A DNA stretch of 64,000 nt from Centroberyx gerrardi. Lineage: Eukaryota; Chordata; Actinopteri; Beryciformes; Berycidae. Positions 34,670 through 63,917 of this stretch are shown one piece after another (within the stretch, counting starts at the first letter, position 1; each line of letters begins with the position of its first letter). The stretch covers positions 18,565,796 through 18,629,795 of the forward strand of contig NC_136000.1 of the NCBI RefSeq assembly GCF_048128805.1, written 5' to 3'. Below the pieces are notes generated by a model, which did not search any database, was not told the DNA's origin, and saw only the letters and a program-made list of their open reading frames with translations. The position numbers were made by a program, and so were the translations under genes.

Positions 34670-37600
34670 TCATATTAAAAAGTCTTTCTGTGTTTGGGGT
34701 GTGTGTGGTTTAAGGGGCTGTTTTAACGAGTGCTGCGGCCGCGTGTCCTGTAGGGGCGTGGCGGGTTTCGCCTGTATTGTGTCCTTTACTTTTGGTCCTT
34801 TGGAGGGCACAATTGTCCGGCTGTCGGATCCGGACTTCGACGAAGTGCCTCGAGAGTCACTGTGATGGTGGGTCTTAGGTCTACTGTCCGTGAAGGAGAG
34901 GGGCAGGGTTTGGTTTGGCTTAAAGAGGTCAAAGGTGATGAGCGTCCGTGGGGGTTTATGTTCCGGCGGAGCAGAGCCCGAGGCGGGGTTTGACTTCTTC
35001 CTCTCCTCCTTGTTGTTGACGTCTTTATCCTTCTTCCCGTCCTTCTTGACCTGAACGTGCGCGTGCTTGGGAGTGCCCGTCTTCCCGTCCTCTCTCCCGA
35101 TCTTGGTTTGGGACGCCTGTGCCGACGAGGCGTTGCTCTCTTTGCCCTCTCTGTGCCCGCTTTTCTCCTTCTTCCCGTGCGATGGCTTGTGTCTGTGCGT
35201 GCAGGAGTCGTCTCTGTCCGGCCGCACGTGAGACGCCGTCTGCGCGCCGCCTCTGTCTTTATCGTGCTCCTTCTCTCTCTTGACGTGAGGCTGCGTCTTC
35301 GAGGCTGCGTCCGGCTCCCTGACCCCCTTCTCCTCCCTCTGAGGCGGCAGAGAAGCGTGAGAGGCTTTGCTGCCCTCTCTCGTCCGGTCCTCTTCCTTCC
35401 TCATCTGTGGCAGCGGGTGCGTCGATGCACTGCCCTCTCTTCCAGCCTCTGCCCTGACCTTCTCCCGCTCTCTCATCCTTTCCTTGTCCTTATCCCTTTC
35501 TTTCCCCCTGTCCTTCTTATCCTTTTCCTTCTCTTTACTCCTATCCTTTTCCTTCTTCTCCTTCTCTTTCCCCCTCTCCTTGTCATCTCTCTCTCTGTCT
35601 TTGCCCTTTCCTTTCTCCTTTTCCTTCTTGATTTGCGGTGGGGTATAAATGCTCGTAACACTATCTTTAGATTTCTCTTTCAGACCTTGAGGAGTTGTCT
35701 TTTGCTGCCTCTCTTCCTCCACATCATTCTCCTTCCTAATTTGCTGTAGTGACTTTGAGGGTGCACTACCCTCTCCACCCTCTTCGTCCCCCTTATGCGG
35801 CGTCTGATACGTGCCTGCGCTGCCGTCTTCCCCTCCCATAACCTCCTCTTTCTCCTCTTCCTCGGCCTTGGGCTCCATTAGTGTGTGTGGGAGTATACCG
35901 TCATCTCTCTCCTTCCTGACAAAGGGCAGAGAATCTGTCGGTGACAAGTCCTTCATCTCGGCTTTTTTCTCCATCTCCGCTTCCTTCTCCAGCTCTTCCT
36001 CCTTGCAAATGTGTGTGGGCCCGTGTGAGGGCGGCTCCTCCCTTTCCTCGGCATCCAGATCCTCCAGCTTTGTCAGTGTCTGTGTAGGAGGGTCACACTC
36101 TTTCTTCTCCTCTTCCTCCTCGTCCTCATCTTCCTCCTCTTCTTTGATTTGAAGTGGCATTTGTCTGGGTGTACTCTTCCCCTCCTCCTTTTCCTTCACC
36201 TCTTCCTCCTCCTCCACTTCTTGCTGGTGGTACTGTCTGAGCCGGATGTGCCAGGCCAGACTGCAGACAGCGGAGACAGTTTTGAACTGGTGGACCACTC
36301 CTCTGGGGATGAAGTAGATGTCATCGTGGTAGAGCTGGATACGGGCGTATCGGATCCCCTCCCTCCTCAGCTGGTTCAGCTTGGCATCGTCAATCCACTG
36401 TACACACTGTGGAGGGAGTGACAGGAGCAGAGGAAATTCAATAATCCCTTAATAGAAATGAACAGGCGCGAGGAAATGTGAAAAGCTGGCAGAGTAATAA
36501 TTCTCCATGTGGGAATTCCGTATGTTCCGGATGCACAGATACGGATCGTGTATCAAATATCTGACCAAGTACTGGCTGAAAGTACGGCATTGGAGAATTT
36601 CCAATTCTTAATTGATTAACAAGAGCTAATGTGACATGTCAGAAGTCACAGCCAAGCAACTTGATTTTCTGCCTTTTTCCACACATAGTATTCGTTCGAT
36701 ATGTTTGATCCGTTTAGCAGAGAAAACTGGATTATATCTGAATCCCCCCTCTCACCCCCAATCATCCCAAACTAATAGTCTAATTCTATCAGTAAAAGTT
36801 CTGTAATATTTTTTGGAATTTTAGTAATGCATCAGTTAAATACTTGGTAACAGCTGAGACTTATTGTTGAGCACTGACTCTGTACCAGCAGTTTCAGTGC
36901 CATTACACAGTGTGTTCCTGTTAATGGCACACCCCGTCCTACTGGACGCAGTGAGGAGTCTGACCCACCTGTGACAGCGGAGGTTCGTGGAGGTCCAGCT
37001 GCAGCCTCATGACCACATCGGGGAAATCTCCAGCGTGGAAACACACAACGTCTTTGGTGATCCGCGGAGGAGCGTCGCTGCTGTAAGGCAATACAGAGAG
37101 TCTCATTCACTATGTACCTTGTGTTCTGAAAATCTGAACACAATCGGACGTCATCTGTCTATCATCTTGTACTGTGTTTTTTGGTGTGAGGCCAAAGATG
37201 ATTTTCCAGTCCAAGTTGGACAAAACAGTTGTAAAGTTGTATTCTGTGTAAATGTGTACAGGTGTGTGTGTGATAGAAACATGAAAAGATGTCAGTGTAC
37301 TCACTCCTCTCCACAGCGCACAGCCTTCAGCACGCCGACAGCAGCAGTGGTTTGTCTCTCGAACCCCTGACCAATGTGGTCGGCATGGGCTCTCGTCCGG
37401 TCCTCAAACAGCATCTCCCTGGGCTCGCTGGCTCTAGGTAGGTACTGGAGGTTCTTTATCTCATTGGTGGACCTGAAATACATTCATTTACACAGATATA
37501 GTATATTCAAGGAAGTGCTAAGTACCTGTACATGGGATGTGCAGGTAAGAGAAGAGCTGACAGTGCTTCAATAACATTTGGTTTAGCCCTACTTCAAACC

Positions 37601-40600
37601 AAATTTTGTTTATTTGTTTTAGCAAATAAAGACGCCGGTCAGGTGATAACATCCGTCCACTGGTAACAGTTTAACTACTCAACCCACCTTTTCCTTTTGA
37701 AGGGCGATTTTGGCATGTCTGCCATAGGGATCATCTGTTCACCAGGTCGGACCCACATGATGGGGCCGTCGTCACTCTCAGTGGGACTCTGCAGCCGCAG
37801 GCTGGAGAACGTTCCCCAGGGAAGAGTCCGCTGCACAAACACAGAGCGCAAAATACTGCGTTAGACAATGACAGGTACACAGATATTCACAGGTTCACTG
37901 GCTAAGCTATGTGCGCATACGTACACACACATGAAAAACACACTAACCTCCAAGAAGGGAGAGTCCTCTAGCATGCTGATGAACTCAGGGAAGTAGTCCC
38001 CGACCTCCTCGTCCACAGCCCCGACCAGGCTGACCTGCCGCATGGCTCCGGCACGGTACGTTCCCTTGGAATACGTCCGCTTCACCTGCAGCAGGGAACC
38101 AGAAGAGAGTTCAGATCCTCAGCCAGCAGATACCAACAAAACTTTCTTCCTCTGACAAATTTACAACACATAACATGTAAAAATTGTCAAGAACAACACA
38201 AAAAGGTCCTGAACTTGTTTCCATGGTGGTCTGACATTCAAACCTGATGACAACAGAACAGTTGATTGTGCATCTCTCTCCCTTTACACAGAAGCTCCAG
38301 TAAAACATAACACAGTATGCTGCGCAAGAAATATGCTATGCATACTAACCAGCCATAGTGAACTGAAGTCCCTATAGGGATGATAAAACTGAATAGATAC
38401 ACATTTCTATTATTTACATATAAAGCCTTAAACAACCTGCCGAGAGAGTGCAGTAGCTACAACTCCAACCTCTGGAACTACATTTATCCCTGCTGCCTTT
38501 TATCAAATCTTGTCAGAGCCTTGTTCTCTGTGTCTCTGATACTGTGATTTCTCAGCCTTCATACTATCTCAATAAAGAAAACATCCAAAATAAAACAAAC
38601 AAAAAAACTCACTTCATGTCTTATCAAGTGTTGACATAGCCCTAGTCATTTAGGCTACGACTTGATGTGATTCTGAAAACTTCGGCACACCTAAGTACTG
38701 ACATGAAGGTGGTGCCGTACTTCCAACACTTAACATCTGCAGGAGGGAAACACTGTTGCTAGGCTACACAACTCCGAGTCTCGCGTTGAAAAGAAAAAAA
38801 AATATAAATAAAAAAAACAAAACAGAAGGTTTCTGATAACTCAAGGAGCCACATGCACAAACACATGTGCCTCTTTTATGAAAGGTTCTTTGTACACAAT
38901 CAAAACCAAATTTGTAGATGATAAAAACACTGATGTCAGAATGAGCAGTTCCCAGTGGTTCTCATAATTTCTTTTGTGATCTATGAATGACAGAATCCCA
39001 TTTCTAAGTTGTGAAATCTATGGATGCTGCCACATTTGTGAAAAAAAAAGGATTCTTTGAAATTAAGAAGAATTAAGGAGTCAAAGAACATAAATTATGC
39101 CAACAGATAGGTCAAGCTGCCATCATTTAGGCTTTGAAAATAAGATGACTGGAAATAAATTAGTAAACAAGCCACCAAAAACCAAGTGTAATTAACATCC
39201 TCTAGGTTTAGACGAACAATTTTCCCAAACAGGTGGAGAAGTGAAGAGACAACACTAATGAAACCCATCCATGCTCACTTTGCTGAAGTCAAATTGAGGG
39301 GAAGGGAAGAGATGTTGAAATTTTTTTTAAACAATCAGAGGATGTAAATTGAATTGTTAGGGAGCTGACTCAGGCTCTCCAGGAAAACACAGGATTACAT
39401 CATTAAGAAAAATCAAAGGCTACCAAGAAAAAGTAATAAAGACGATCTAGATATAGTCACCTTTATTATGCATACATAAAAATAGCTTTTTTTTACTCTG
39501 AGATAATTAAACTTTCTTCAGGGAGTATGTTGGAGGCTGACGTGAAAGCAAACCTCCAGTTGAAAGTAGAATAATCACTACCAAGCACTTTAACAGAGGG
39601 GTTTCTCCAGGGACCATTATGATCAGCGATAATACGAGACGTGGCACACAGCATGCTTAGGGCTAAGAGCACCATAAGACATCCTGGATACTGAACCACT
39701 TTAAACACAGGATTAAAGATGGCTCGGGGCGGTGTGAAAAGCCCCGGCCATTAACGGTCTGAACGAAGACCTGGACAGAAATGACTTCATTACACACAAA
39801 ATTGCTCTTGTGCTTCATGAGCTGGTGGACGATGTGGTAGTTTGAGATGTGTCGCTCAAGCCTCCAGACCACACACTGGTACAAGTATCAATGTGGACAG
39901 GACAGTCCTGTCAAACTCATCGCCTCTCTCTACAATGTGGACTAAAATAAATACAACATCCTCACCTGAGAGTGGAAGTTAACCATGGTTGTCGTCTCGA
40001 TGTCCTTCTTCCCAAGCACCTCCATCTTCACTGGTGAGTTGGGGAACTTGTAGGAGAAGTAGTCCAGGAAGTCCGGGAGGTAGGAGGCCGCCCCGTGGAT
40101 GATCCCCATCACGTAGCGCGCCGCCTGAGCCTGGTCCTCGCTGAACGACAGGGTGACAAACTCCTGGGCGAAGCGCTGCATCTCGGCCGGAGACAGGCTG
40201 GAGAGCTGCTCGCTGTAGGCGTGCGCCACCGACGCTCCTCCGTTGGCCTGCTGCTCGATGTGGATCAGGCGGCCGAACTCCAGACCGGCCAGGCCCGGCG
40301 ATGGGGTGCAGTGGAGCGGGGAGCCGTAGCCCAGCCTCTCCCTGACCATGGAGGGAGTGGCAGTCAGGGGGGAGTCCTGGTGGTCCTGATGCGGCGCTGT
40401 GGTGTGGAGAAGACTGCCGCTGCTGCTGTTACTGTTGTTCCCGTTGATTTTACTGAGGAAGTCTGGTAGATCCAGAGACACTCCTGAGCACATGGTCTGG
40501 CTTGACCGGTGATACATTCTGGGCCGGCTGTGCCTCTCCTTCTCCCGCTCTCCATCTTTGTGCTTCTTTTTCTTCTTCTTTTTCATTTTCTTCAGCAGGA

Positions 40601-41710
40601 GCTCTTCCTCTGAAACAGCTTTGGGCTTCTCCTTCGACTCTGCAGGCAAGAGGGAGGATAAGTAATTTTATCCAGGTAAAAGCATGAGTGGTGCATCATT
40701 TGACAAATCAAGGCCTATAAAATCTAGACAACACATAATAAATGGCTTGCAAAAGACTTATGTAATTCAAAATAATCAAAGAATAATGGAAAACACATTT
40801 CAATCCAAGGGGTTAATGATATATGTCATCCCTTACCTTTCTGCGGGGTAATCACTTCTCCATTTTCTCTGGCAATGTCATTCACAGGTGGCAAGTTGTG
40901 GTTCTTCCACTCTTTATCCTTTTCTTTTTTCTTATCTCTTTCTTTGTCCTTAACACGATAATCTGAAAAAGGGTAAATACAACACAGACAGACAGGATGA
41001 GCTGAAGCGCTGCTGCATCCATGCTAAAGATAACTGATGAGCAAACATTTCCACGTGTATATATCACCATCTGGGCCTAATAAATACTGGGGCCTATCGG
41101 TGTAACAAATTATGTAATAATTCAATAAATGGTTTTATTATAATTACGCTGCATGTACAATTCTAAATTTAACCATAAACTGACATAATCTCCGTTAGCA
41201 TTCCTGTATTGAAGCGCCCGGTTGTGTTGCCCTACCTCTCTGTAACATTTTCACGTCACCGTTCTCCGTCTTTGTATGGCAGCTAGCAGGGCTCACTTTC
41301 TCCACAGCCACGGGTGAACTCTGCGCCTGGACGTTTTTGTCCTTATCCTTGTGTCGTTTCTCTTTCGCCTTCTTGACTTTCGGGGGAGAGGCGAGGAAGT
41401 TGCTGATCTTGAAAATTTTTCGAGCGGGAGCTGGCGCGGCGGAGTTGCTCGCCTTGGCCGGGCCGAAACTCCATTTCGCTGGGCTTCCATAACTCTGCTT
41501 CCCGTTGTGTTTTTCCCCTGCGCAGACCTCCCCGTTCAGTTTCTTGTGTTTCAGGCTCTTCTCCTCGATTCGCACTTTCTTGGAAGGTGGAGGGTAAATG
41601 TCGCTGGAAGACTGCGGTCGGCTCTCTGGCGGCCGTTTAGCTATCAAGGGTTTAGGGGAATTTGTTTTGCTATTTGCTGCGAAATGCATGGAGTCCACGG
41701 ACTCGGCCAT
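34670..41710 (-). CDS. rsbn1l: Round spermatid basic protein 1-like (RSBN1/KDM9 family), long-tailed
   Basis: Eight coding exons in transcript order: 41710-41236, 40962-40837, 40639-39966, 38085-37948, 37830-37688, 37472-37305, 37080-36969, 36406-34670, in phase, about 1,190 residues (human RSBN1L about 846). The N-terminus is basic ([20 protein letters not shown], then Lys-rich runs). The conserved core includes [112 protein letters not shown] and [24 protein letters not shown]1 proteins are nuclear and related to the JmjC H4K20 demethylase DPY-21; an HxD (HAD, 37379-37387) and a later His (36290-36292) could bind iron. The last exon continues for about 520 residues of Glu/Lys/Arg/Asp-rich sequence, far longer than I know for the human tail. 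The gene converges with tmem60 as in human. Confidence 0.93.
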
Positions 41711-41900
41711 CTTGGAAGTTTCTATTTTTTACGGTCAGACGTAACTGGTGCGTGAGAGACAGGCGGGGGCGGGGCTTAGCGCTGCACGTCGACCAGGACG
41801 CAGGATGGGGGAGGGAGAGCAGGCCAGTCAACACGATTGTTTACAACGCTGCAGGAAGCGCTGGCATAAGATATTGCGTTGCAGACTAGGCAGTAACAGT
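41711..41900 (-). promoter_or_regulatory. rsbn1l promoter, GC-rich
   Basis: CpG-rich sequence continues from the first coding exon up to about 41900. A GC box (ggcgggggcggggc, 41762-41775) lies about 55 bases upstream of the ATG. Confidence 0.5.
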
Positions 41901-46235: not shown

Positions 46236-47102
46236 AATAAGATTTGAAAAATTTCAATTAGAATCTCTGGTGTGGCATAACGTTTGAATCAAGCAGCCCT
46301 CGGGATAAATACAGAAACTGATCTTACATTCCTGACAAATTAAACCACAGGACTTGCAACAAAATGAAATATATCCTCACAAATCCCTGCAACAAACTCT
46401 TGGCTCCAGCCCAGCAGCCAATATTTTGCCTCAAATGCATATTTTGACCTGTTGCATCTGTCACTCACATGTTTGTGGACCTATTGACAGGAAGCGTGGG
46501 AAGTGCCTGCCAAAGCAACTGTCACACACATGCAAATTCATGGCAGTGATATACAAGGAGAGAAAATGTGTGCTTATCATTACAACATGGAGTGAGAATG
46601 CATTACAAATGGTCTTCATTAGGTGATTTGATTAGGTTGAGGACAATTTGGAAAGTAATAAAAGGATTACAATATGACATATAAATTCTTTTATTTTAAG
46701 GCTTTCTTGGTTCATGCTTTTTATGACTGATTTAGAACTGCAGCTGTTAACTCTTTGTTGATATTATGAAGTGGAAATATTTTACCGTTTCCTCACGCTA
46801 TCCCTATCTCTCATCCACTACTTGATAGAAACCAGTTTACTGAGAAATACATCCCCAATCCTGCTCTCATGCTGTTTGCTTTTGGGTTTTTTTTTCCGCC
46901 TGCCTCCCTCTCACACACTCGCAGACGCCACTCTCATCTGAAGAGCTCCATCAGTTCTCCCTCCCTCCTCTTCTCCCTCCCACCTTGCCTCCTCCTCTCT
47001 CTGTCACAGCTTCTCACAAACTGAGGTGGGTCTTTGGTGTCCCTCCGCACCCTCTTTCCCTCTCTCCCTCCTTTCCCCTTTACTCTTCACTCTCAGGACG
47101 CG

Positions 47103-50100
47103 ATGAGGTTAACAGCATTGTGCCTATGTGGGACCCTGCTGGCCTTCTCCTGCCTGTCCTGGACCACAGCAGACTCCGGTGAAGGAGCCCTCCTCTGGAC
47201 TAAGGGATCTCGGCCCTGTACTGTGACTCTGAGACCTGCGGGACCGTGCGGACGGGGGAACGATGGAGACACATGCCCCTACCGAGTCAATCTACCACCA
47301 CTGACCATCCATTTGCCAAAACAGCTCAGAGAGCTGGAGAAGATCGTGAAGGAGGTACAGAAGCTGAAGGACAACGTGGATCAACTGAGGAAGATGTGCA
47401 CAGATTGTACAGTAAGCCAAAATGAGAGAGAGAGTGGAAGACTGGGGGAGAGAGAGCATGAAAAGCTGAAAGAGGGTGAGCAAAAACATGAGACTGAAAG
47501 GGACTGGATGAAAGAGAGAGATTCTGAGAGACAAAAAGAGAATGACAGAGATTTAACAAAAGAGTTTGGGACAGATAGAGTTAAAGAGGAAAAGAGGACT
47601 ATGGAGGAAGAGGGGGACACTGACTTGGAGAAGAAAAGGATTTTGGAGGAGACAGAGAGAAAGAAATGGGAAACAGAAAGAGAGAGAGGGAGAGTTGTCA
47701 TAAAAGAAAATGAGAAAGGAAAAACTCTGAAAGAAGAGGAAAGGAAAGATGGAAAAATTCAAAGAGAGACAGCGGGAACGAAAGGAAAGGATAAAGTACG
47801 GCAGGCAAAGGTACAAGCTGGTGGGGAGAAGGAGATAATAGTGGGTAATGTGAGAGAAAAGGTCGTTGACAAAAAGGACAGGAGAATAGAGACTGTGATT
47901 AAGAAAGAAGATAGTAAGGGGGGCGTCAATGGAGAGAGAGAGCATCAGTTGGAGAATGGAAAGGAGAGCGAGATGACAAGTGATGTCAAAAATAAGGAGA
48001 AGAAGGAGATGGAAGGAAATGGCCATCATCTGTGGCAAGATGAAAATGAGAAAAAGAGGGAGATGGAGGAGACCCAAAGTGAAGAAGACTGGGGCAGTGA
48101 GATAATAAAGATGTCCGAGGACCATGGGCATACAAATAAAGAGAAAGAGCAACACAGAGAGGAGATGGAAAAGGAAATGGAAAAGGAAAGCAATATGGAG
48201 AGAAATAATGAAAAGCCAAAACAGACTGAAAGCATCGGGTGGACAGAAAAAGAGAAGACTATAAAAAAGGGGGAGGAGGAGGAGCAGGAGGAGGAGAGGG
48301 AGACGGGAAAGGAGATCAAAACAGAGAGAGAAAAACCAGTCCAGAGTGTACAGCGAGACAGTGATGGAGAATTGGCATCCAGCAAAGCAAGTGAGAGGAC
48401 AGACGTTGTTTCGCCCAGCTTGGCTCCAAGGCCTGACTCCGCAGACTCTGATGAAACTATAACCTTTACATCGCCACTTCCATCCATGTCCAGCTCACAT
48501 TTTATCACAGACAGCGACAGTGGAACTTCTGGGACAAGCTCAGCTCGTCTTTCAAGCTTTGCCTTCATATCGAGCACAAGGCCTAACCCTGGTTTAAACA
48601 CAGACACCGACCTCACTCCAGACAGACAAAGGACCACTACTGTCAGTCAAGGAACCACAACAACTGCATCTGGACTACTAACACAAAGTCCAGCCCTTAG
48701 TGACAGGACAGTTAGCAGTACTGCACACCAAAGGCCTAGCCCAACAACCAAGAGATGGTCTACAAACAGCAAAATGACAGTGAAATCTGGAATAACGACC
48801 CAAAGACCCAGTCAACAAACAGCAAACTCTGACCCAGAGTCTGCCTTTAGGACCACAAGTGGGCCAACAACGACCACTGCTGCAACCAGCCCATTGGCTG
48901 GTCCTGGACAAAAGATAAGCCGTCCCAACACTGGGATCAGCTCCACAACCACCAGCCTGAGACCTGGGGCAAGCTCCCGAGGCAGAGTTGGCTCAACTTC
49001 AGCTACTACAACCACCACTAATCCTAGTCAGAAGTTACACACCACGACAGTCTCAAGTGGAACAAACCACAGCCTTTGGACAACTACAAAGAATATCAGC
49101 TCAAAAACTAAACCGATCATAAAACCCCTACCAGGCCGAGGACCAAAGCCTGGTCAAAAGCATAAACCTGGGATTAAGCCTTTACCAGATCAAGAGCCAA
49201 AATCGGACTATGACCTTAAACCTGATCGAGCTCCTTTACCTGGCCAAAGAGCAACACCTGGTCAAAAGCCTAAGCCTTCTCACCAAAAACCTGCTGCTGA
49301 CCTAAAACCTAAACCTGGCAAAAAACTAAAACCAGGCCAAATTCCAAACCCTGACCAAAGACCTCGACCTGATCATCTGCCAACTGATCAAAATCCCAAA
49401 TACGACCAAATACCTAATTATGACCAAGACCATACAACCGATCAAAAGCATATATCTACCCCAAAGCCAAAATCTCATCAAAAGTCTATGCCTGCTCCCC
49501 AGAAACCTACAACTCATCAAAAGCCTTCAACTACCAACAAAACTAAATCCGACCAAGATCCTGTAACTGACCTAGAGCCAGAATCTGATAACAACCCAAT
49601 ATTTAATCAAAAGTCAAAACCTGAACAAAAGCCTGTACGTCCTCTCGACACCCGTAAGCCTGACCAAAAGCTAAAACCTGAGAAAAAGCCAAAAAGTGAC
49701 CAAAAGACAAAATCTGACCAAAGGTCCAAATCGAACCACGATTCCACACCTGTCCAAGAGCCTGAACCTGAAAAAAGTCCAACATCTAACCTCAGGCCAA
49801 AACCTGACCAAAAGCCTGTAACTGAATTAATTGAAAATTTGGATCAAGATCCTTTACCCGACAAACAGCCTATATCTGTCAAAGACTCAACACCTGGCCA
49901 AAAGCCAAAACCTGATCATGCTCCTATGCCCCCTTATCAAAAGCCTAAACCCAGCCACAAAATGCCCAAAATTAACCAAAGGCCCCATCCTGACCGAAAG
50001 TCTATGACTGAACCAAAACCAAAACATGACCAAATACCTGAAACTGATCCAAACCTTGGACAAATGCCTAAACTTGACCAAAAACACAAACATCCGCAGT

Positions 50101-52971
50101 TTCCGACTGGCCAAAAAACTAAACCAGATGTCAAGTCTGAATCTGACCAAGGTCCTGCACCTGACCAAGAGCCTAAAACTGACCAAGAGCCTAAAACTGA
50201 CCAAGAGCCTAAAACTGACCAAAATTTTAAAACTACTAGGCCTGACCAAATGCCTCAGTTAAACCCTAAATCTATACCTGATCAAAACCCTGAACCAGAA
50301 TCAGACAAAAAACCCAAACCGAAGCCCCCACCTAGACATTGGCCACCAAGAAGACCTAGACCCCAACCGGGTGCAACACCACCTCTAAAGCCAAGACCTG
50401 CAGTCAAACCAAAGCCAAGCCCAAACACCAAAACACATTTTGATTCTCCTCCAGTCAGCGGGACGACCTTGGACAGCATCCAAAGTTCTCAAACTGATGC
50501 ACCTACTTCTAGCCCTGTAAAAAAGATTACTGACCAGAATCTTTCCCAGGGGGACACAGAGTTCAGGACAAACGCGAAGAAAACTATCACCCTGGGTCCA
50601 AAGACCTCTACTAGTCCCTTCCTGGAGGTTGGCCTCCCTCGCCCCAACAGCAGGATCGTGTCTGATCCAAGGCCACAAACAACCAGCCAACCAGCTTCAA
50701 CCCCAAGGACCACAAGACCAAACAAAAACACCGGTGATACCCTTCACCCAAGTATTATTCCTCACACCAGTCCAGGATCCACAACACCAAATCTAGCAAC
50801 TAGTCCCGTCACTAACAGTGACTCGAGCTTACAGACAAAGATAATATTGAGTCTACAGGAGACAGCACCCAGCCAAACTACAAAGCCAGATAAAATGACA
50901 ATCGTCAGCTATGGCCCCATCCGTGACACCACTCCCCAAACTATCTCCACTCTCAACCCGAGTCTCAGCTCTGACTTCACATCAACAACCCCTGCCACCT
51001 CCAGCCCTGAACCCCCTTCTCCCAGTCCCTTTCCTGATTCCACCACTCCCAGCGCACGAGAGCTGCGTGTGAAGATCAACCAGGTGGCCGCTTTCCTGAA
51101 TAACAGCCTGGGAAATGGAAAGCCACAGGACAGGCATCTGAAAAGCCATCCAAAAAACCCTGAGGGGAGCCAGGGAGACAGACAGCTCTCGACACTGATA
51201 TCATCTAAAGGCAAGACATATGGTTTGCATAATGTCACAGTGCTTGACCAAGCTTTGTCTTTGTATGCACACACTACCATGAATTTACACATAGAGTGTG
51301 CCGGTATCTCAGTAACCTTCTCACTATGTATTAGTTATTATTGTCACTGCTTGTATTATGTTTGTATTAGTTTGTATACCAGATGAAATAATGGCAGAAG
51401 AAAAAGTATTACATAATTTTATACGATAATCTAATGGCTGCATTGTTTCAACAAGTCAACACTAAGAAATGTTCTAAAGTTCACTAGGCAAAACAGGCAA
51501 ATACAAATTAATTTCTATGAAATTTACAACCAACCTTGTAAAAAGTGAATTTCTTTTGATGACATTACATTTTCCCAACTTAGTATTTATACAAAGGACT
51601 CTGCATATCATGCAGAGAGAAAACTGTAAAAGAATCAGTTTTATTGTATATCATACTCTAAGTGCTTATCATTTTATTACTCGATCAAAGTAATTGGTAT
51701 GACATCAATATCACCAAACAAAGCGTTAAGAGGATTTTAAGTGAGAAGACCACAAGACAGGGTGATTACTAATGAGCCTAGTATAATATAATATGAGCCT
51801 CCATGGAGGACTGAGATCATCATCTTTGCAACATACATTGTGGCTTATTCTTTGCCATATGAGGAATTTGCATATGTGTGCAAAATGCATGTGTCAGAGT
51901 TTGAGTGGTGAGTAGGGATAAAACCACAAGTGTGCAGTCTTAGTCAGACTAAACAGCTTTGAAACATCCTTCAGTAAAGCGTGCCTTAAAGCAAATGATT
52001 AATTAGATATCAAATCAATCTTATGGATTTTTCATCCAAACACACCAAGTTACATGAGTTCAAACACTAGAAACCCTTTAGACTAACAACTAACGGCCTC
52101 CTTATTATGCAGCGTAACTGTAGGCTTGATCTGATAAAGGTCAAGAGGATTTGTATTTTATACTGGCCCACTTTAGGGGGCTTTGAGCAAAAAAAGAAAC
52201 CCATTTATCATGTAGATCATTTCTGCTAGTCATTAATAAAGCATTCTCTTCCTGTCTTCAGTTGCCACGGCAAAGAGAGACTGCTCTGACCACAGGACCA
52301 GGGGGGAGAAAAACAGCGGCATCTACCTGGTGACCCCTGACCTACGTAACAGAACTTTCCCAGTGCTGTGTGACATGGAGCTGCAGGGCGGGGGTTGGAC
52401 CGTCCTGCAGCGCAGACAGGACGGCAGGGTGAGCTTCAACCGGACCTGGGCGGAGTACCGGTCGGGCTTCGGGGAACTGGACGGAGGGGAGTTCTGGCTG
52501 GGTAACGAGCAGATCCACCTCCTGACCCGGGCCAGGGACATGGTCCTGCGGGTGGAGCTGGAGGACTTTGAGGGGGCGATGGGATATGCAGAGTATGGGC
52601 AGTTTAGGGTGGCAAGCGAGCGACTGCGCTACCGCTTGACAGTAGGTGGTTACTCAGGCTCTGCGGGGGACGCCCTGCGCTTCAGCACAAGGTACGACCA
52701 CAACAACAGGGCCTTCACCACCCCAGACCGGGACCACGACCGCTACCCATCAGGCAACTGTGGGGCCTACTACAGCTCAGGCTGGTGGTTTGATGCCTGC
52801 ATGGCAGCAAACCTCAATGGGAAGTACTATGTGGGGAAGTACAAAGGGGTCCGGGACGGGATCTTCTGGGGGACGTGGCACAACATATCGACAGAGTATT
52901 ATCCCACCAGTGACAGGCAGTCTTTTAAAACTGTCAGAATGATGATCAGACCAAAGGGCTTTGCACCATGA
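47103..52971 (+). CDS. fgl2: Fibrinogen-like protein 2 (fibroleukin) with giant low-complexity insertion
   Basis: Two coding exons, 47103-51210 and 52262-52971, predict about 1,605 residues (human FGL2 439). The signal peptide is MRLTALCLCGTLLAFSCLSW. Conserved FGL2 N-terminus: TCPYRVNLPPLTIHLPKQLR, EVQKLKDNVDQLRKMCTDC, ending near residue 102. Then follow a Glu/Lys/Arg-rich segment (about 105-420), a Ser/Thr-rich segment (430-665), a Pro/Lys/Asp/Gln repeat segment (665-1105), another Ser/Thr-rich part, and a second FGL2-like helix (RELRVKINQVAAFLNNSL, about 1318). Exon 2 carries the fibrinogen-like domain: DMELQGGGWTVLQRRQDG, TTPDRDHDRYPSGNCG, SSGWWFDACMAANLNGKYY, GIFWGTWHNIS, MMIRPKGFAP. 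The intron is GC-AG and in phase 1. FGL2 is a secreted or membrane immune regulator with reported prothrombinase activity. The Met at 47103 is chosen because the signal peptide begins there. A poly(A) signal is at 53504-53509. Confidence 0.92.
49105..50420 (+). repeat. Coding Pro/Lys/Asp/Gln degenerate tandem repeat inside fgl2 exon 1
   Basis: The unit is about six codons, consensus KPxPDQ, repeated dozens of times with drift. The best-preserved array is an 18-base unit (gaccaagagcctaaaact, DQEPKT) in three identical copies at 50163-50216, then a changed fourth copy to 50234. The frame stays open throughout, which argues for selection against stops or recent growth. Confidence 0.9.
51211..52261 (+). 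other. GC-AG intron of fgl2
   Basis: The exon ends in AAAG before GCAAGA and the acceptor is ttcag at 52257-52261. The left-over G plus TT restores a codon, giving SSKVATAKRDC across the junction. No nearby GT donor joins in phase with conserved residues on both sides. The intron holds no recognised element. Confidence 0.7.
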
Positions 52972-54469: not shown

Positions 54470-54974
54470 GTCTATACAGGGTATTTCGGTGGTGGCTTTT
54501 TCTAGCGGACTTGAGACAGGTGAACGACTGTGCCACTGCTGTGAGTTCAAATCAAATGGATAGACATCCTCCAGTTGTCTGGTATGGGCTAATTTTGTTT
54601 ATTAGAATCTTAGTAAATTTTAGCAGCAGAATTTTGGATTAAAAAAAATCAGATTTGTATGGGTATGAATAGGCTATTTTGGAAAAAATACATTACAAAT
54701 TAATTTACTACATATTTTTCCTTGAATAAAGTCTATATTTATACTTTGATCATTTTATTACTTACGTTAAGGGTTTTATTTTGAAAATTCTGACCGGAAA
54801 ACATAATGTTTATTCTAAGTGGCTTGACACTGGTGTGACATCCCATGTTGACCAAAAGAGTCTTGTTTACTTCAGTAGTTAGTTTCCAGTCCACCTACAC
54901 CACACTAACTAACGTCAGCAGTGTGAAATGTGGATGATTCGGCTCGTGCGGCTTGTTTACCGGCGGTGACCGAG

Positions 54975-57900
54975 ATGTTTCGGTGCTCGACAAGTCAGCG
55001 GGTTTGTGTTGGACTCTTGCGCTGCCAATCCCTGATAGCAAGTCCACACACACTCCCACTCTCCCCCCGGTGTGTGCCCACGTTGCGCTCCTTCTCCTCC
55101 TCTCCCTGCACCAGGTCAGCGCCTCCGACATGCAGAGAGGTGAACAAGCCTCTGAAGCAGTGGACTCTGGTGGTGAGTCCGTTCAGCACGGTGCGGGTCC
55201 AGCTGGGCTGCAACATCTCCATCCGGCCGCTGGACCCGCACGCCTTCCCCGAGGCGAACCGAGCCTTTATCACAGTCCACGGGACGAGCGCCGACCAGGG
55301 GGTCAAGCTGGATAACTTCCACGTGCACTATGATGACCAAAGCAAAGAGCTGGTTATCCTGGCCGAGAAGGTCAACAGCAACGTGTCTGTTGAGCTGGCA
55401 GCACCTATCAAAAGTAGTGAGTATCCTCTATGGTATAACATGATAAGGTCACCAGGGTGCCCCCCCTCTGATGCCCCGTGTCTGCGTGGATGACAAGCCC
55501 TCACTAATGGTTTCAAAACCAACTACAAACAGACAGTGGCCGCTATTTTAATTTAAGCAGCAGCTTAAATCAGTAATGATACTAATTGTGTCTTCCACTG
55601 GTCTTCTTTAATAGTTTGTGTCTGTGTGTCTTTGTGTGTCAGATCTCTACATTACTACTCAAGGAGAAGGCAGCGTACAAGTCAAGAAAATGGAGTGTGA
55701 TGTCTGCAAGGTGCAGACTGAGAAGGGCCACTGTGTGCTCCACTCTGTCAAGGTGGGCTAGCCTACATCATAACACATCAAAACCAATGCTTATTGCAGC
55801 AGATGCATCTTAAAAAGTATTTTCTGTTTTGTCGTACAACAGCAGAAGTGAGTTCTCTCAAATGTCAAATAAAAAGCCACTGTCTGTATTCTGAACCTAA
55901 TGTGAAATAAGACTGAAATCTAAGACTTGGGGTCAGGCTGACATTTTCTCGCTCCCTGTCCTCCACTCACTGCTGTTTCTCACCTCACAGGGTCATCAGG
56001 TGGAGGTGCAGTCCCATGGAGGACATGTTACAGGTGTGGGCACTATCCACGGCAACGTGGACATCAGCACATGTGGAGACAGTGTGAGTCTACAGCTTCA
56101 TATTACCTGGTCCTTGCTGGTTGTTACACTCAGCAGTCATTAGGGGGCAGTACCAGGCCAGAAAAAGACTTTGGTCACCCTGCATGCAGCTGATGACAGT
56201 AGACTACAGAAAATTTCAGTGCTGTTCGGTGGTCAGTTTGTGTGTGTGTTTACAGGCAGTGGATGTGAAGAAGCTCCAGGGAACCACAATGAACGTGTCA
56301 ACAGAGCATGGCCCTCTGAAAGTCAAAGCCATCTATGCTGAATCCACTTCTGTCTCCTCCTCCTCTGGGAGAGTGGAGCTGGGGCATGTACATGGTGAGA
56401 AAAAAAACAAAAAACAATAGCTATCCCTCATGTCAAGTGTCTGCATGGTTAGTGCTACTGCTAAGCAAAAATGTAAAAGTATAAACATTCTGCAAACTGT
56501 GTGGAATGAGAAGCTAGTTTGACATCAGCATTCTGGTTGTCATCCTAACAGCAACGAACAAATACAACCTGTTGGATTTTTACTAATAAAAATACCTCTT
56601 TTCATATATATATGTATATATATATATATATATATACACATCGCAGGAAAGACATCAATAACTCAATAAATCAAATTCTTAAAGTCACAATGAAATAAAA
56701 AATGGCTTTTTGTTGGCTAATTTTCCTTGTAATTACATTTACAATATGTGTCTTAAAATCTTGATCCTTCCCTAAACAAAAAAGTAAAGTAAAAATTTCA
56801 AAATGAATTCAAATAACATAATAATGAAGCGTATTCACTGTATGAAACATGCATGCTCACATATTGTAGTTTGGAATAAACAGTGTAATATGTAGTTCAA
56901 ATGCATTTAGTTTATTTGTTTGTTTTGGGTTAGTCGTAAAAAGCGTTAGCTATAAAATGAATGGAGACAGGAATTTGGATCAAGGACAGTAACAGCACTG
57001 TAGTGTGAAGTCTGGAAGATGTGTCATCCATATAGAATTTTAATTTCTTCCTGACGTAGATGAGCCCCTCTTCCTAGAATATATGGAAACAATTATATTG
57101 TTAACTTGAATGATGAAGGTTTACCGTAAGCACGGCCTGTGAAGACCCGCTTTCCCTGTCAACAAGTCCATCGTCTCTACCTTTTAGATATTATGTACTC
57201 TGTCTGCTAGGAGCTGAAAATACATTGACAGGTAGTTACACTAGTTAATGCTGACTTTGTGTTTTCATTGATTATAAGGTAACGCCACTGTGAAGAACGT
57301 TTCTGGAGATATAATTGTAGGTAAGCAAGCTGATTCTCTCATTTTGCATTGCACAATGAACTAAGTACAGTGTCTATTTTGATCGATGGTAAAAAGAAAA
57401 ATACCAAAACACTTTGGGCTTGCTTTTCCTTTGTAGACGGCTCAAGTGGCTCTATGAAGGTTTCCTCTCACAGTGGAGACATCGATGTCTATGTGGGGGA
57501 CACTGGCAGCGCTGAACTCCACAGTCAAGAAGGTAAACAGATTGGAAGTATCAAATAGTATGAGAGGGCTAATCGCCTTATTACCCACAATTGGTCAAAT
57601 CATTCCTAAATTTTCCTTCCTATGCACATATCTTTTGAATTGTCTACCTTAAGTCTCCCTCCACTACCTTTACCTGCTGTTCTTCTCATCTCTCTGTCCC
57701 TCATTCTTTTGTAACATGTTTCTGTTGCTCAGGAGCAGTGTGTGTGCGCGTCCCCTCCTCCATCAGAGCAGGGGTGGAGCTCTGTGGAGCCTCAGTGGAT
57801 ATCAGCCCAGAGGTTTCCCTGCATGGAGCGGAGCGCAGCACGACCAAGGGCCAAACCACAGTTACTGGTGAGTCATCATCAGTCTTCATTATAGCACTGC

Positions 57901-58155
57901 ACTCCAAGACAGTGTTACTGTCAAGTCTATTACTAAACTCTCCCAACACCTAAACCAGTATAATACAGCCAAACACCAGTCTGTTCTCCTTTCACTTACT
58001 CTGCTCAGCCCCCCTGTTTCTCTTGTTGTGCCTCTGTCCCAGGCTACATGAACGCTGAGCCTCAGGCGGAGCAGTGGGTGAAGGCTCAGGCAGACAGAGG
58101 CTCCGTCAGGCTGAAGACACAAAGCTGGTTTGAGTCCCTGAAGCTTGGAAGCTGA
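54975..58155 (+). CDS. fam185a: FAM185A homolog
   Basis: Eight exons: 54975-55416, 55643-55752, 55991-56083, 56256-56394, 57279-57320, 57437-57532, 57733-57867, 58043-58155, in phase, about 389 residues (human 392). The Met at 54975 (MFRCSTSQRV) matches the position of human MFAPC; an in-frame ATG at 54930 is the alternative. The first 50 residues are Arg/Ser-rich with no acidic residue and contain RSFSSS, like a mitochondrial presequence (human has RPYSSG at the same place). Then come LKQWTLVVSPFSTVRVQLGC, IRPLDPHAFPEANRAFITVH and repeated Gly/Ser beta-strand units (SGDIIVDGSSGSMKVSSHSG), as in DUF4097-like beta-helix proteins, ending SWFESLKLGS (human SWFQSLKLQD). Molecular function is not known to me. 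The end of exon 1 may be 55413 instead of 55416. Next to fbxl13 and convergent with it, as in human. Confidence 0.92.
56602..56640. repeat. (TA)n microsatellite in fam185a intron
   Basis: TA repeat with a few GT interruptions, in the intron between exons 4 and 5. Confidence 0.9.
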
Positions 58156-59717
58156 GTTATGAGCAATGGGCTTTTTGGAGGGTTGTAATGTCAGTGCACT
58201 GGAGGTTTATTCTTAAAAAAAGGCACTTCAGCAGCAGATAACCACTGCAGCTCCTGAGGACTGGATTCACCTTTCCCTGACTAAAGTCTTTCAAACTCAG
58301 GTAGTTCATGCAGTGAGGAAATTCTGGGTCACCAGTGCACACAGTAAATCTGTGAAGCATACTGTATAACCATGCACCAGTGTTGGTTTATGCTGAACTG
58401 GCATAGGGTTTTGAATGACTGATTGATTAAATGATATCCATTTCACAAAATGTAAATTAGAAAACCATATTTTAAGAATAGTATGTTTATTATTACTGTA
58501 CTTGTAATGCTCAATATTGCCAGAGTAGCTAAAAGAGTCTATAATTCGCATGTCTTCTGTATGACTCATGTGCCTGCAATATAAAACTGTAATTGTAAGT
58601 CTAAAACTGTTATGATTGTATAATCTGTGACATCATCGAGAAAGAAAACCTGGAGCTGCCCCATCAGCAGTGTATTGGAAACTGATTTTTATCATCATTA
58701 AAAGGCAAATTTAGGTCAGTCAGTCACTAGTCACAGTGTACAGCACTTGAGAACATAATGTTCTTCAAATCATGCCTGTTCTCCACTGGATTGTTATTGA
58801 GCAGTATCTGATTCATAAAAGGAAGTTAGAGATTAAGAAAATGTAATGAATGTTACGAATCTTGACACCATAGATGCTTTTCCCACAATCCTCTCTGTGT
58901 ATTTGGAAAGAACTAGAAGTTATCGGCACAAATGTGCTGTTGAGCTGTGCAGGATCTGAACTTGTTTTGGACCGATAAATGTTTTCACCAAATGAGCTTC
59001 ATTTCAGTTTAGTGCTGACGTCTCTGAAGCAGTGTGAGAGCCTGCGTCACCCTGGGTGTCAACAGAGTTCAGGTCCCAATTGTTGTCAGTAGAGCAGCTC
59101 CAGCCTTTGTCTCTTGATGAAAATACAGATTAGTCTGTGGCTCGGCTCTCTTGTGCCTCGTTTTGGGAGAGGCTTGTTTATTTTCACACATCCAGTCTCA
59201 GCTTCCCAACATCGCAGGAAACACATGAATATTCTGTGGCTGTGGATGTCTGATTGTTGATATGTTAAACCTTGAAACCTCACAAGGTTTGGCTAGATCA
59301 GACCCACTGATCTAGTGGCTTGGCTTTGTCCAATCATAAGTGTCCATTTTACAAAACCAAATTGCCATTGTGCATTTCTGAATAAAACAAATCCAAGCAC
59401 TCCTAGAACTTAGTGACTGACACTGAAAAATGTGAATATGTACTGTATGTTTATTGAACATGTGGACTAAATGTGAAGATGTGATACAGAAAGGCATTTT
59501 TTTTGTAGATTATCTAAATTCTGGGTAAATGCAAAAATGGTTTGTTGGAGATGCTATAAATGGAAAGCTCATAATACATCTTGATGTAAAGCATAAAAGA
59601 TCTCAAAATTGATGTCTGCTGTGATTGTCAAAAATTATATGAAGCAATGTGACCAGTATATAAAGTTGTGTTTTTATAAAATTATGAATTATAGAGGCCT
59701 GTGTGTATACCCTCTCT
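58156..59717. other. Convergent 3' UTRs of fam185a and fbxl13
   Basis: No coding sequence was seen. A plus-strand AATAAA at 59381-59386 (with ATTAAA near 58698 as an earlier option) and a minus-strand signal (TTTATT) at 59450-59455 point toward each other about 65 bases apart. The two transcripts may therefore nearly touch or overlap. Confidence 0.5.
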
Positions 59718-60248
59718 TCAGTTCCTGCTCTTGTCATCCCCGAGTGCTGGCTCCTCCCCTTCCCAAGTGTCATCAGTCTTGCCGGGTTTTCTGATTGGCT
59801 GCACCATCTGGCCCATGTTGTTGTATCCGAACCAGTAGGGAGGGTCGTCGTTGCTGTGCTCCCAGTACTGCACACGTGGCTGCAGCCTCAAGGCTGCCAG
59901 CCTGATGGAGATATTCACTGGTCAGTAGTGTTTTCACTGCAGCACTTTCACTGCAGAAGGTTTGTAAGTGTGTGCCTTACTTGGAGATGCCGCTGCAGCA
60001 GGCCATGGTGACGGAGCTGAGTGGAGGACAGTTCCTTTCTAAGTGGCGGAGGGAGCGATCTGTGAGAAGCACACAGCCGCTCACATCAAGCTCTCGCAGG
60101 TACTGAGCTCCACCTGCCAGATACTGCACCGCCATATCTGTCATCTGAGGCAGGGCAGAAGAAAACAGGAAAATGTGGCATGAATGAACAGGAGAAACAG
60201 ATAGACTATAGTCAGGGAACATTCAAAGAATTCAAAAATTCAAACTGA

Positions 60249-60298
<50 letters not shown>

Positions 60299-61003
60299 CT
60301 TGGGACAACCTGACATTCGCAGTGTGACTAGACCTCTGCAGTAGAACGAAAGCGCTCTGATGGCCAGGTCAGACAGAGCCACACAGTGAGACACGTCAAC
60401 ATGTTCCAGGTCTCTCACATGCTTGCAGAGCTTCTACCCTCAAATGGAAAGAATGAGAAGAGAGAGAGAGAGGAAAACGGTGAACGATGAATTGATGAGA
60501 AATTGATGAGAAACGGGATGTGAATTGATGAGATCTACATGTAGACAACCAGAGGTGCCTTCTGAGGAGGGGGGGTCATGGAAACAGAAACAACTGCACA
60601 AATTAAACAAATGACATATTTGGTCCCCATGTCTACAGTCTAGCTAGATGTGTACCTCTAAGCCAATGTCTGTGATATAGACACACTCGGTGAGAACCAC
60701 CTTCTTCAAGTGAATTCCCTTGAGAGCGGCCAGTCCCTAAAAATACAAATATCAAGTTACAGTTTGTTCACCAAAAGGGCTACTTTATAATTTTCTTTCT
60801 GAGGGAATGTGATCAGTGATTTTCCTCATTTGTAAAGTCCACAGGTGAGCGCAGACATGCTCACAGCACCTGATCCTGGATGTTACAACCACTGATGTCA
60901 AGGGAGGAGATGGAGCTGCCACTCAGCCACTCCAGACCGCCGTCAGTCAGCCTCTCACAGTAACTCAAATTGAGGTGGTGCAGTTTACACAACCTGATGA
61001 ATT

Positions 61004-61052
<49 letters not shown>

Positions 61053-63917
61053 GAGCTGCTAAGTGTCACTGCACAACAGACCAGAGTGAGATCTGTGTGA
61101 GTGTGTGCAGTCATGTACCTTTGAGCAATCCTCATGACAGAGATGTCATTGATGAGGCTGCAGTGAGTCACATTCAGCTCCCGCACTTTGGAGGCCGAGG
61201 AACCTTCAGTCAGATAACGCATCCCTGTATCGCCCACCCTGAAATACAAACACAGTGAACACTAGGGATGGGACTATATATTGAAATTCAATATATCCCA
61301 ATACAAAAATGTGACAATACGTATTCTGGGGCAGAAAATGAATCGCGATATTAGCTACATTTTCTTTCTTCTGCTGTAGTAATCACAAATGAGACGGCTT
61401 ACCCATCACCATTTCACAAGCTCTCCATTCAAATTATATTATTTGCACTTTGTAATGACATTTTTAAATTGTTGTTTACATTCTGGCAAGAAATTGCTGG
61501 AAAGATCTGTGGCTCAGAAATAAACATAATTCTGTCATATTTTGTTGTCACTGAACCTTTATTTATTACATCGTATCATGGTTGTATTGAACCATAACGC
61601 GTATCGAATCATATCGTGAGATAAGCATATCGTCCCATCCCTAGTAAACACACATTAAGTAATGCAATCTAATGTAAGAGTGTAGCATAGGTTTCACTGA
61701 ATATACAGGGTGTAACAGACTAAAGACGTTACAGACGCATTTCCACAGCCTCAAAGATTTACACACACACTTGTTGCAGTGTGAGATGTCCAGGTACTGC
61801 AGGTTCTTGAGGCTGGCCATATATTTGAGGCTGGCATCAGTCATTCTGGGGCATTCTGCAGCATGGAGCCTGCGGAGGCCTTGTGAGCTGCGACACAGGG
61901 CCTTCCAGCCGACGTCTGTCAGGCAGTCATTACCTGGAAGACACACAGGTGTGGAACAGACAGAATAACAGAACAAGCGTTATGCCTTTTCCTGTGCATA
62001 ATGGAATTACAGGTCGCACAAAACTCAAAAAAAAAATTATCTCACCCTCTGTACTGAAAGTCTTGAGTTTGGCAACTTCAGCGATGGCTTTGAAGGCGGT
62101 GTCAGACAGATGAGGAGTATCCAGAAGTGAAACGGCAGACAGAGAGCGACATTTGGCAAGCAGAGCCTGTTGGACAAGACAAGACTGAGACAGCAACTTT
62201 CTTCTCTGCTGTGAGGGAATGCAGGCATATGAACAATAGATACTTCATGAGTTGACAACATGAATTCACTATTCTATTCTATTCTTTTTTTGGGCATGTT
62301 GCTTTACTAGATAGTCACAGTAGAGAGTGCCACTGCAATTAGGACTTAGCCTTAATGGTACACGCTCTACCGATTGAGCCACCGGGGTGCCCCATATTCT
62401 ATTCTATTCTATTATATTCTATTATATTCTATTCTATTCCTCTGTGCTGGGTATTCTCTGTTGAACATTCCAGAGCTGTGATGCTATACCTGCATTAAAC
62501 CTGAAACGTGTTAGAACATACTTACCAAAACACAGCTATCTGACAGAGTGGGCATGTCATTGATCACAATATCTTTGAGTAAAGGACATCCCGCAGAAAT
62601 GTATCTGAACCCATTCACTGTCATCTGGAGGGAAAGAGAGGAAGAGGGAAGAATATATATCTCCATGTTGGAATCTAAACCATTTGGCTGCCTGCATGCA
62701 GTTTCCCTCCCTCTCCTCACTTTTTCTTCATCCAGTAATGTGAAACCATACCATCTGGAGCCAAACCAACACACACTCCCAGAGGGAAGTGTGTTTATAT
62801 GTTGAGGTGGATGTGTGTGATGTTATGGAGTGTGCACGTGGTGGGTGGGTGGGCCAGAGTTTTTTTAGTATAATCCCAACCCTCCACTCTCTCTCTCCTT
62901 CAGATCTCTGTTCATTCTCCCGGGGAAACAGTTAGAGTACAAGCCCCAACCTGTGTACAGCTAGAGACAGGAGGGGACTCGCAAGTCCAAGCAGAGAGGA
63001 GTGACTACATTTATTTAAAGGCTGTGACCTGACTGCAGCTGGAGTGGACAGAGGAGAGAATATATACAGAACAAAGAGGAGCATACCAACTGACCTGAGT
63101 GCAGCCGGACAGATTGAGGTGGATGAGATTGTGGCAGCCTTTCCCTGTGCTCAGGTACTGAAAACCTTTATCTGTGACTCTATAGCAGTAGGCCAGACTC
63201 AGGTACTGGAGGTTCAGGCAGCTCCTGTCCAAAACCAGGAGTTAGATTAGTAATACAAGAAATCGAAGACAAATTATGTGTGTTTAAGCTTTTTGTAGGT
63301 TATTGTTGTTTGTTTTTGTTGTTGCTGTTGATTTTTAGCCAAGTAAAAAGTGCAGAGGTGTATTCTGGAAAGGAGCAGTGCACATCATCAGCACACATAA
63401 CAACATCACATTTTGAATGAAAGTGGATACTTTGTCCGGGGAAATGTGAAATTTTCCAAAATATTCTGCATAACAATAGTAACCATGAAAGAGAGCTGCT
63501 GACAGAAAACTGAGGTTTTGAGTTGAAATAATTGAAATGCTTTGAACCCCCAAATTCAATAACATGGCAATCATAAGTCAGCCATTTTAGTTATGAGAGC
63601 AGCATCCACTCCTCTAAATAACTATGATATAACGGCACTGGGCAAGCTGTTTGTTTTCATGACATGAAATACAAGCTGGCAGTTGGCTGTGTCTTGGAGG
63701 AACAGAAACGGGGCTGATTCTGGGAATGTAGGGGCAGGAGGCCAGAAAGGGGGCGTCATACAGGAATTTTTGGATCATTTGGACACTGAGTGAGCTGGGG
63801 GACAGTATACGTTTACCTGGACAGCTCTCTCACAGCTCTGTTTGTCACAAGTGTGCAAGACAGATTCAAGTAGAGCAGGCTGGGACAGCCCTCGACTATT
63901 CTCTGAACCATCATGTC
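59718..63917 (-). CDS. fbxl13: F-box and leucine-rich repeat protein 13 / dynein regulatory complex subunit 6, C-terminal part
   Basis: Eleven exons in transcript order: 63917-63817, 63224-63095, 62624-62526, 62166-62046, 61933-61771, 61238-61119, 60993-60870, 60736-60656, 60430-60299, 60144-59981, 59901-59718, in phase, about 472 residues. The F-box and N-terminus lie beyond the window. The exons encode cysteine-containing leucine-rich repeats: NLQYLSLAYCYRVTDKGFQY, INDMPTLSDSC, LHAAECPRMTDASLKYMA, RELNVTHCSLINDISVM, LNLSYCERLTDGGLEWL, LEHVDVSHCVALSDLAIRAL, LDVSGCVLLTDRSLRHL. The tail NDDPPYWFGYNNMG aligns with human FBXL13 NTNDPPRWFGYDREG. FBXL13 is DRC6 of the nexin-dynein regulatory complex in motile cilia and is also reported as an SCF substrate receptor. 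Introns hold a hAT element and a SINE. The acceptor at 60431-60432 is weak. Confidence 0.93.
60249..60298. repeat. (GT)n microsatellite at an fbxl13 exon edge
   Basis: GT repeat ending directly at the minus-strand splice donor of the exon that starts at 60299. On the transcript it is a CA repeat beginning within a few bases of the 5' splice site. Confidence 0.95.
61005..61050. repeat. (CA)n microsatellite near an fbxl13 splice acceptor
   Basis: CA on the plus strand, 12 bases upstream (transcript sense) of the acceptor for the exon beginning at 60993. Confidence 0.95.
61263..61643. mobile_element. hAT-type non-autonomous element in fbxl13 intron
   Basis: The ends are tagggatgggac and gtcccatcccta, perfect 12-base inverted repeats. 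Flanks gtgaacac (61255-61262) and gtaaacac (61644-61651) match at 7 of 8, an 8-base duplication typical of hAT elements. The interior is AT-rich with no coding frame. Confidence 0.85.
62284..62394 (-). mobile_element. tRNA-derived SINE, internally shortened
   Basis: Read on the minus strand it begins ggggcaccccggtggctcaa, then tcggtagagcgtgtacc, a tRNA-like A-box head. It ends in ctatctagtaaagcaacatg followed by cccaaaaaaa. Head and tail are those of a widespread fish SINE, but the middle with the B box is missing, so the copy is deleted. Both flanks are ATTCT pentanucleotide repeats. Confidence 0.7.
62394..62440. repeat. (ATTCT)n pentanucleotide repeat
   Basis: Imperfect ATTCT repeats, with further units on the other side of the SINE at about 62269-62285. 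Confidence 0.85.

Follow-up and report, generated by a model that had tools for sequence, protein, structure and literature searches.

A predicted FGL2-like gene of Centroberyx gerrardi with a 1,214-residue low-complexity insert in its first coding exon

The analysis covered a window of 64,000 nucleotides on contig C4 of the 779-Mb genome of Centroberyx gerrardi, and this window contains a copy of FGL2, which in mammals is an immunoregulator and a prothrombinase. No N bases are present in the window. An open frame on the forward strand (47025-51386, 1,453 codons) holds both an ATG at 47103 and the entire low-complexity block that is the subject of this study. The neighbouring genes at 31916-41728 and 54927-62822 resemble, in their translated frames, tmem60, rsbn1l, fam185a, and fbxl13. 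The chromosomal neighbourhood conserved for FGL2 includes rsbn1l and tmem60. The two-exon structure of the gene is a prediction from the sequence, and its elements are as follows.

47103..51210, + strand: exon 1, coding, 1,369 codons plus one base of a split codon, from the ATG to a predicted GC donor
47103..47411, + strand: FGL2-type head, residues 1-103, with significant matches at two FGL2-like copies on C24 only
51054..51210, + strand: tail ARELRVKINQVAAFLNNSL..., residues 1318-1370, without cysteine
51211..52261, + strand: predicted intron, 1,051 bp, GC-AG, phase 1, from splice-site scoring
52262..52971, + strand: exon 2, complete fibrinogen C-terminal domain and stop codon, from PF00147

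The predicted product has 1,605 residues, with a mass of about 179 kDa and a pI of 9.2. When we scored splice sites with vertebrate matrices (99th percentile in the window 4.6 for donors, 5.9 for acceptors), the predicted donor AAG/GCAAGA at 51211 scored 6.8 with its first two intron bases unscored, the alternative GT donor ATG/GTTTGC scored -2.0, and the acceptor at 52262 scored 6.0. The predicted join of the two exons is in phase and leads into a complete fibrinogen domain (PF00147 in Pfam, E 2.4e-84, profile positions 2-221 of 221), in agreement with the in-phase splice to an FGL2 fibrinogen domain that had been claimed from the sequence. GC-AG introns are uncommon, and the sole predicted intron of this gene appears to be of that type. 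The exon-1 product matches no Pfam family at E up to 1, and the best PDB match of the exon-2 domain is FGL1 (2.4e-54, among the best 60 of 68 sequences). No R-X-[K/R]-R site occurs in the whole 1,605-residue protein. A search of viral contigs with the fibrinogen domain found nothing, and among genome contigs 15 pattern matches were obtained, none of which (0/15) encodes a relative.

The head begins with a hydrophobic stretch that by inspection resembles a signal peptide, followed by paired cysteines, CPYRVNLPPLTIHLPKQ, and a first helix ending in KMCTDC. When the genome was searched with the head, the only significant matches beyond C4 itself were two FGL2-like copies on C24, inverted relative to each other (E 3.1e-14 each), and three further matches were marginal (E 0.13-0.83; 7 candidates scored). 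This result bears out the original prediction that the exon opens with an FGL2-type N-terminus carrying paired cysteines. In PDB, 32 distinct sequences matched the head at E up to 1; the best had an E of 0.0068, and none was convincing. The tail, which we read by resemblance as a putative remnant of FGL2 helix 2, found no convincing match in selected C24 regions. Compared by eye with residues 76-87 of human FGL2 as printed in PMC3984148, the C4 protein is identical at 7 of 12 residues and the C24 copy at 8 of 12. The serine reported to be critical for prothrombinase activity (mouse Ser89, human Ser91), which we placed as the fourth residue after this stretch in a gap-free alignment, is replaced by Gln in the C4 copy and by Lys in the C24 copy, and a prothrombinase role by way of that serine is therefore unlikely, judging from these residues, in either copy. 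The cysteines of the FGL2 oligomer are 94, 97, 184, and 187 in the numbering of PMC11141035. The first pair is kept in the C4 protein (residues 99 and 102), and the second pair is absent from it, as it is from exon 1 of the C24 copy. Since the second pair is needed for mammalian FGL2 oligomers, the assembled state of the C4 protein is uncertain. The stretch between residues 102 and 1377 is free of cysteine. In PMC11141035, human FGL2 is described as having two exons, an exon I of 204 residues, and a length of 439 residues, which fits the earlier statement that the human protein has fewer than 100 residues at the insertion site. The C4 copy departs from this size, with 1,369 residues in exon 1 and 1,605 in the protein, and the expectation of a molecule quite unlike known fibroleukin was right with respect to human FGL2. 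Taken together, the FGL2 identity, the insertion site, the open frame, and the in-phase join are supported. Among fish, zebrafish fgl2a is reported as an IL-10 target gene in macrophages (PMC9489698).

On sequence identity, the nearest relative of the C4 gene in the genome is a copy on the minus strand of C24, in both head and fibrinogen domain. The heads of these two copies share 38% identity over 118 columns, and the fibrinogen domain of the C24 copy, split across three exons, shows 61%, 71%, and 74% identity to the C4 domain. The other genome matches of at least 186 residues to the fibrinogen domain number five, with identities of 41-46%, and a match on C5 reaches 56% over 116 residues. The first coding exon of the C24 copy has 199 codons and a strong donor (7.0) and contains no long insert, so that the C4 copy has the larger first exon by a factor of about seven. 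Since 199 codons is close to the 204 of human exon I, the growth is particular to the C4 copy. The C24 first exon ends in phase 0, and the acceptor of its fibrinogen domain requires phase 1, and from this mismatch the C24 gene model probably misses an intermediate exon; a scan for this exon gave one unconvincing candidate. The C24 gene (C24:13915000-13934999) also has extra introns within its fibrinogen domain. A second, inverted FGL2-like copy was observed at C24:13790462-13795617, separated by about 124-136 kb from the copy that looks intact. The match to this second copy starts past the first Met, and of its fibrinogen exons one has the opposite orientation and another has diverged, which would be expected of either a rearranged pseudogene or an assembly fault. 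We infer that C4 and C24 are duplicated chromosome segments, and in keeping with this, the rsbn1l-like exon of the window is also found on C24, at 12.50 Mb; it occurs on C14 as well.

The insert between the head and the tail comprises 1,214 residues (104-1317), close to the roughly 1,200 low-complexity residues originally proposed, and its coding frame is unbroken. It had been divided into three composition blocks, in place of which we counted four.

47412..48371, + strand: block 1, residues 104-423, Glu/Lys/Arg-rich (E 78, K 50, R 27 of 320), pI 5.2
48372..49130, + strand: block 2, residues 424-676, Ser+Thr 41%, mucin-like composition
49131..50438, + strand: block 3, residues 677-1112, diverged hexapeptide array with consensus DQKPKP (DQxPKP), 26 QxP
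50439..51053, + strand: block 4, residues 1113-1317, Ser+Thr 36%, Pro-rich

None of the four blocks contains a cysteine, and the insert has four N-glycosylation sequons (two in block 2 and one each in blocks 3 and 4). In block 1, residues of opposite charge occur in excess at lags 1, 3, and 5 (z 4.0 at lag 3) and are depleted at lags 2, 4, and 6, and this odd/even alternation is the pattern expected of GAG-AGA (Glu-Arg) repeats. A single alpha-helix of the i/i+4 type was considered for this block and is unsupported, since lag 4 has 31 pairs of opposite charge where 45.8 would be expected (z -2.7). Block 3 contains 96 Pro, 68 Lys, 41 Gln, and 40 Asp in 436 residues, with a Ser/Thr content of 12%. 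Its identity at lag 6 is 0.277, compared with 0.106 +/- 0.014 in 5,000 shuffles, and the fitted motif covers 312 of the 436 residues in 52 units (24, 29, and 30 units in three shuffles). Asp stands at position 1 in 30 of the 52 units, and Gln at position 2 and Pro at position 4 in 36 each. Tandem Repeats Finder detected 18-bp arrays within block 3 at 49660-49722 and 50143-50222, and no tandem array scoring at least 50 was detected in blocks 2 and 4.

We then considered how the frame of this block is maintained. Between 47412 and 51050 the coding frame has no stop in 1,213 codons, while stops number 39 and 115 in the two remaining forward frames (1,212 codons each) and 32, 30, and 83 in the reverse frames. 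Block 3 alone has 58 stops in the 435 codons of another forward frame. When the four blocks were simulated with Markov models (1,000 runs each), the mean number of stops per frame was 54 at order 1 and 52 at order 2, and the minima were 35 and 31, respectively. These counts are most simply read as selection maintaining the open frame, at the least to preserve the domain that follows. Purifying selection on the residues of the block-3 repeats was examined and rejected as a claim, since no clear constraint was seen. The dN/dS values among the repeat units, calculated from overlapping and hence non-independent window pairs, were 0.81-0.93 in the coding frame, which resembles one of the two control frames (0.82-0.85 and 1.20-1.25). 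Three codon-shuffled controls, which had no more than 17-31 windows, gave 0.92-1.06. The frame is thus kept, while the residues may drift.

As to where the insert came from, a search of the genome with its DNA, which skips simple repeats and very common words and scores only the best candidates, returned the insert itself and 17 weak matches, all of them in block 1 and with E of 2.6e-6 or weaker. Block 3, the sole block searched as protein, found only itself (84 candidates scored). Capture from elsewhere in the genome or from a mobile element was rejected on this basis, since beyond low-complexity matches both queries find only themselves. The repeat patterns suggest that the insert arose where it stands, with a GA-type microsatellite and an 18-bp minisatellite as the probable sources outside its two Ser/Thr-rich blocks. 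Since the first exon is short in both human FGL2 and the C24 copy, the short form is likely to be ancestral, and exon 1 of the C4 copy would then likely have grown by about 1,170 residues.

Based on these observations, we consider it somewhat likely that the C4 gene is one of two FGL2 duplicates whose first exon grew in place into an open-frame stalk, giving a protein with a coiled-coil base, a flexible arm, and a fibrinogen head. In this process, low-complexity DNA would have expanded within the first coding exon with the frame staying open. The product would be secreted, and helix 1 together with the retained cysteine pair (99 and 102) would join chains at the base. From its composition the insert is presumably disordered, and the arm, probably O-glycosylated in its two Ser/Thr-rich blocks and extended by the proline repeats, would separate the base from the head and hold several fibrinogen heads far apart. 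The outcome would be a hydrated, multivalent molecule for recognition at long reach, located in plasma, matrix, or mucus. The original prediction had spoken of a secreted stalk like that of lubricin or a mucin, carrying a fibrinogen recognition head, and this is a fair reading of the sequence whose likeness holds only in part. The Ser+Thr contents of 41% and 36%, the Pro- and Lys-rich block, and the lack of cysteine agree with it, but blocks 1 and 3, with 756 of the 1,214 residues, are not mucin-like in Ser/Thr content, and no Pfam family matches the insert at E up to 1.

The growth could also be a tolerated by-product, in which a GA-type microsatellite and an 18-bp minisatellite expanded in a relaxed linker and gave length without function. 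We regard this as a tentative possibility that is less probable than a stalk. The charge alternation of block 1, the 18-bp arrays inside block 3, and the repeat dN/dS near 1, indistinct from that of one control frame, are all consistent with it, while blocks 2 and 4 lack a tandem array of score at least 50 and the absence of stops, in a block that has 58 of 435 in another frame, argues that truncation was selected against. However, selection against truncation fits equally well a function of the downstream head alone. It is unlikely, in our estimation, that the block or most of it is spliced out as an exitron, so that the main product would be a short FGL2-like protein. The candidate for such an event is given below.

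47476..50454, + strand: possible cryptic in-frame intron, which would remove 993 codons and leave a 612-residue product, from splice scores

The best donor of the exon (47476, 5.0) and its best acceptor (50455, 4.4) share a phase and would leave this product open, but among the 110 GT sites of the scanned stretch about one is expected to reach the 99th percentile of 4.6, phases agree by chance in one case out of three, and the acceptor falls under the 99th percentile of 5.9, which makes a pair of this kind unremarkable. Fourteen in-frame splice pairs have both scores at 1.5 or above. A GTAAGC sequence lies exactly at the block start (47412) and, with a weak in-phase acceptor at 50859 (0.9), would give 456 residues, but its score is 1.6 and it does not match the phase of the better acceptors at 51005, 51026, and 51053. 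A stretch that is constantly removed is, moreover, not expected to remain stop-free. An intron at the exact block ends was rejected separately, since this GTAAGC is weak and its phase differs from that of the AG sites before 51005, 51026, and 51053.

A reading that gives the arm a chemical role is that it serves as a crosslinking substrate, in which a transglutaminase would link one arm with another or with matrix, mucus, or clot and so fix the fibrinogen heads; we consider this distinctly improbable. Factor XIIIa crosslinks the alpha-C region of fibrinogen. In block 3, 26 of the 41 Gln stand in QxP (8.9 +/- 2.5 in shuffles), with QP occurring twice and QxxP once, and in PMC2988817 TG2 is reported to act on QxP but on neither QP nor QxxP. 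The 68 Lys of the block and the retention of Gln in 36 of the 52 fitted units also agree with crosslinking. Yet amplification of one unit yields the same QxP enrichment without selection, and 37 of the 41 Gln are encoded by CAA, a sign that the units are related as DNA; furthermore, the TG2 preference was seen with gluten peptides and TG2 and not with fish enzymes. A covalently anchorable, lectin-like FGL2, with the DQxPKP arm (26 QxP Gln, 68 Lys) stitched into mucus, matrix, or clot and the two Ser/Thr-rich glycosylated segments holding the head out for target binding, is to be seen as a long shot of similar standing; if true, it would be an independent parallel to the alpha-C region of fibrinogen. 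Finally, that the block is an assembly or annotation artefact appears highly improbable. The sequence comes from a single assembly, and the C24 paralogue region of the same assembly appears rearranged, but the window has no N bases, the frame is one and unbroken, the block has no second copy, and the splice phase matches.

When the C4 gene was set against known systems, it resembled vertebrate FGL2 in its head with paired cysteines and helix 1, its single predicted intron, and the whole fibrinogen domain in the second exon. It differed in having 1,369 rather than 204 residues in exon 1, Gln in place of the serine, and no second cysteine pair. The C24 paralogue is closest in head and fibrinogen domain, but has a first exon of 199 codons and a fibrinogen domain spread over three exons. 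Compared by description, the alpha-C connector of the fibrinogen A-alpha chain is alike in that a coiled coil leads into a disordered region containing short tandem repeats. According to PMC8745514, this connector is flexible and has 10 repeats of 13 residues, with copy number and period varying among species. Unlike the hexapeptide array of block 3, it is built of 13-residue repeats, and it spans only A-alpha 240-410. Lubricin (proteoglycan 4, PRG4) carries, besides its mucin domain, somatomedin B domains. Its mucin domain, also compared by description, is alike in its short Lys/Pro-rich repeats, which are expected to be extended, and PMC12262190 ascribes polyproline-II character to the KEPAPTTP repeats, favoured by Pro- and Lys-rich repeats. 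However, this octapeptide has Thr in every unit, unlike block 3 with 12% Ser/Thr, and the C-terminus of lubricin is a hemopexin domain in the same source as opposed to the fibrinogen domain of the C4 protein. Neither hemopexin nor somatomedin B domains were found in the C4 protein, for which Pfam, searched in two parts at E up to 1, gave PF00147 only. The stalk may be likened to the alpha-C connector or to the lubricin mucin domain in kind.

A search of titles and abstract openings, with subscription journals largely outside its scope, did not turn up any paper describing a long FGL2 from fish. Provided that its protein is made, the C4 gene would show cleanly how one of two duplicates can take on a different physical role, and would be a testable example of a long stalk arising from microsatellite- and minisatellite-like DNA in a coding exon. 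It would also bear on whether fibrinogen-superfamily proteins repeatedly evolve long disordered arms. As a separate observation, a microsatellite named 'fibroleukin', with 5.2 to 18.2 effective alleles, is reported in PMC12530302 as a marker within an inversion in Lake Malawi cichlids.
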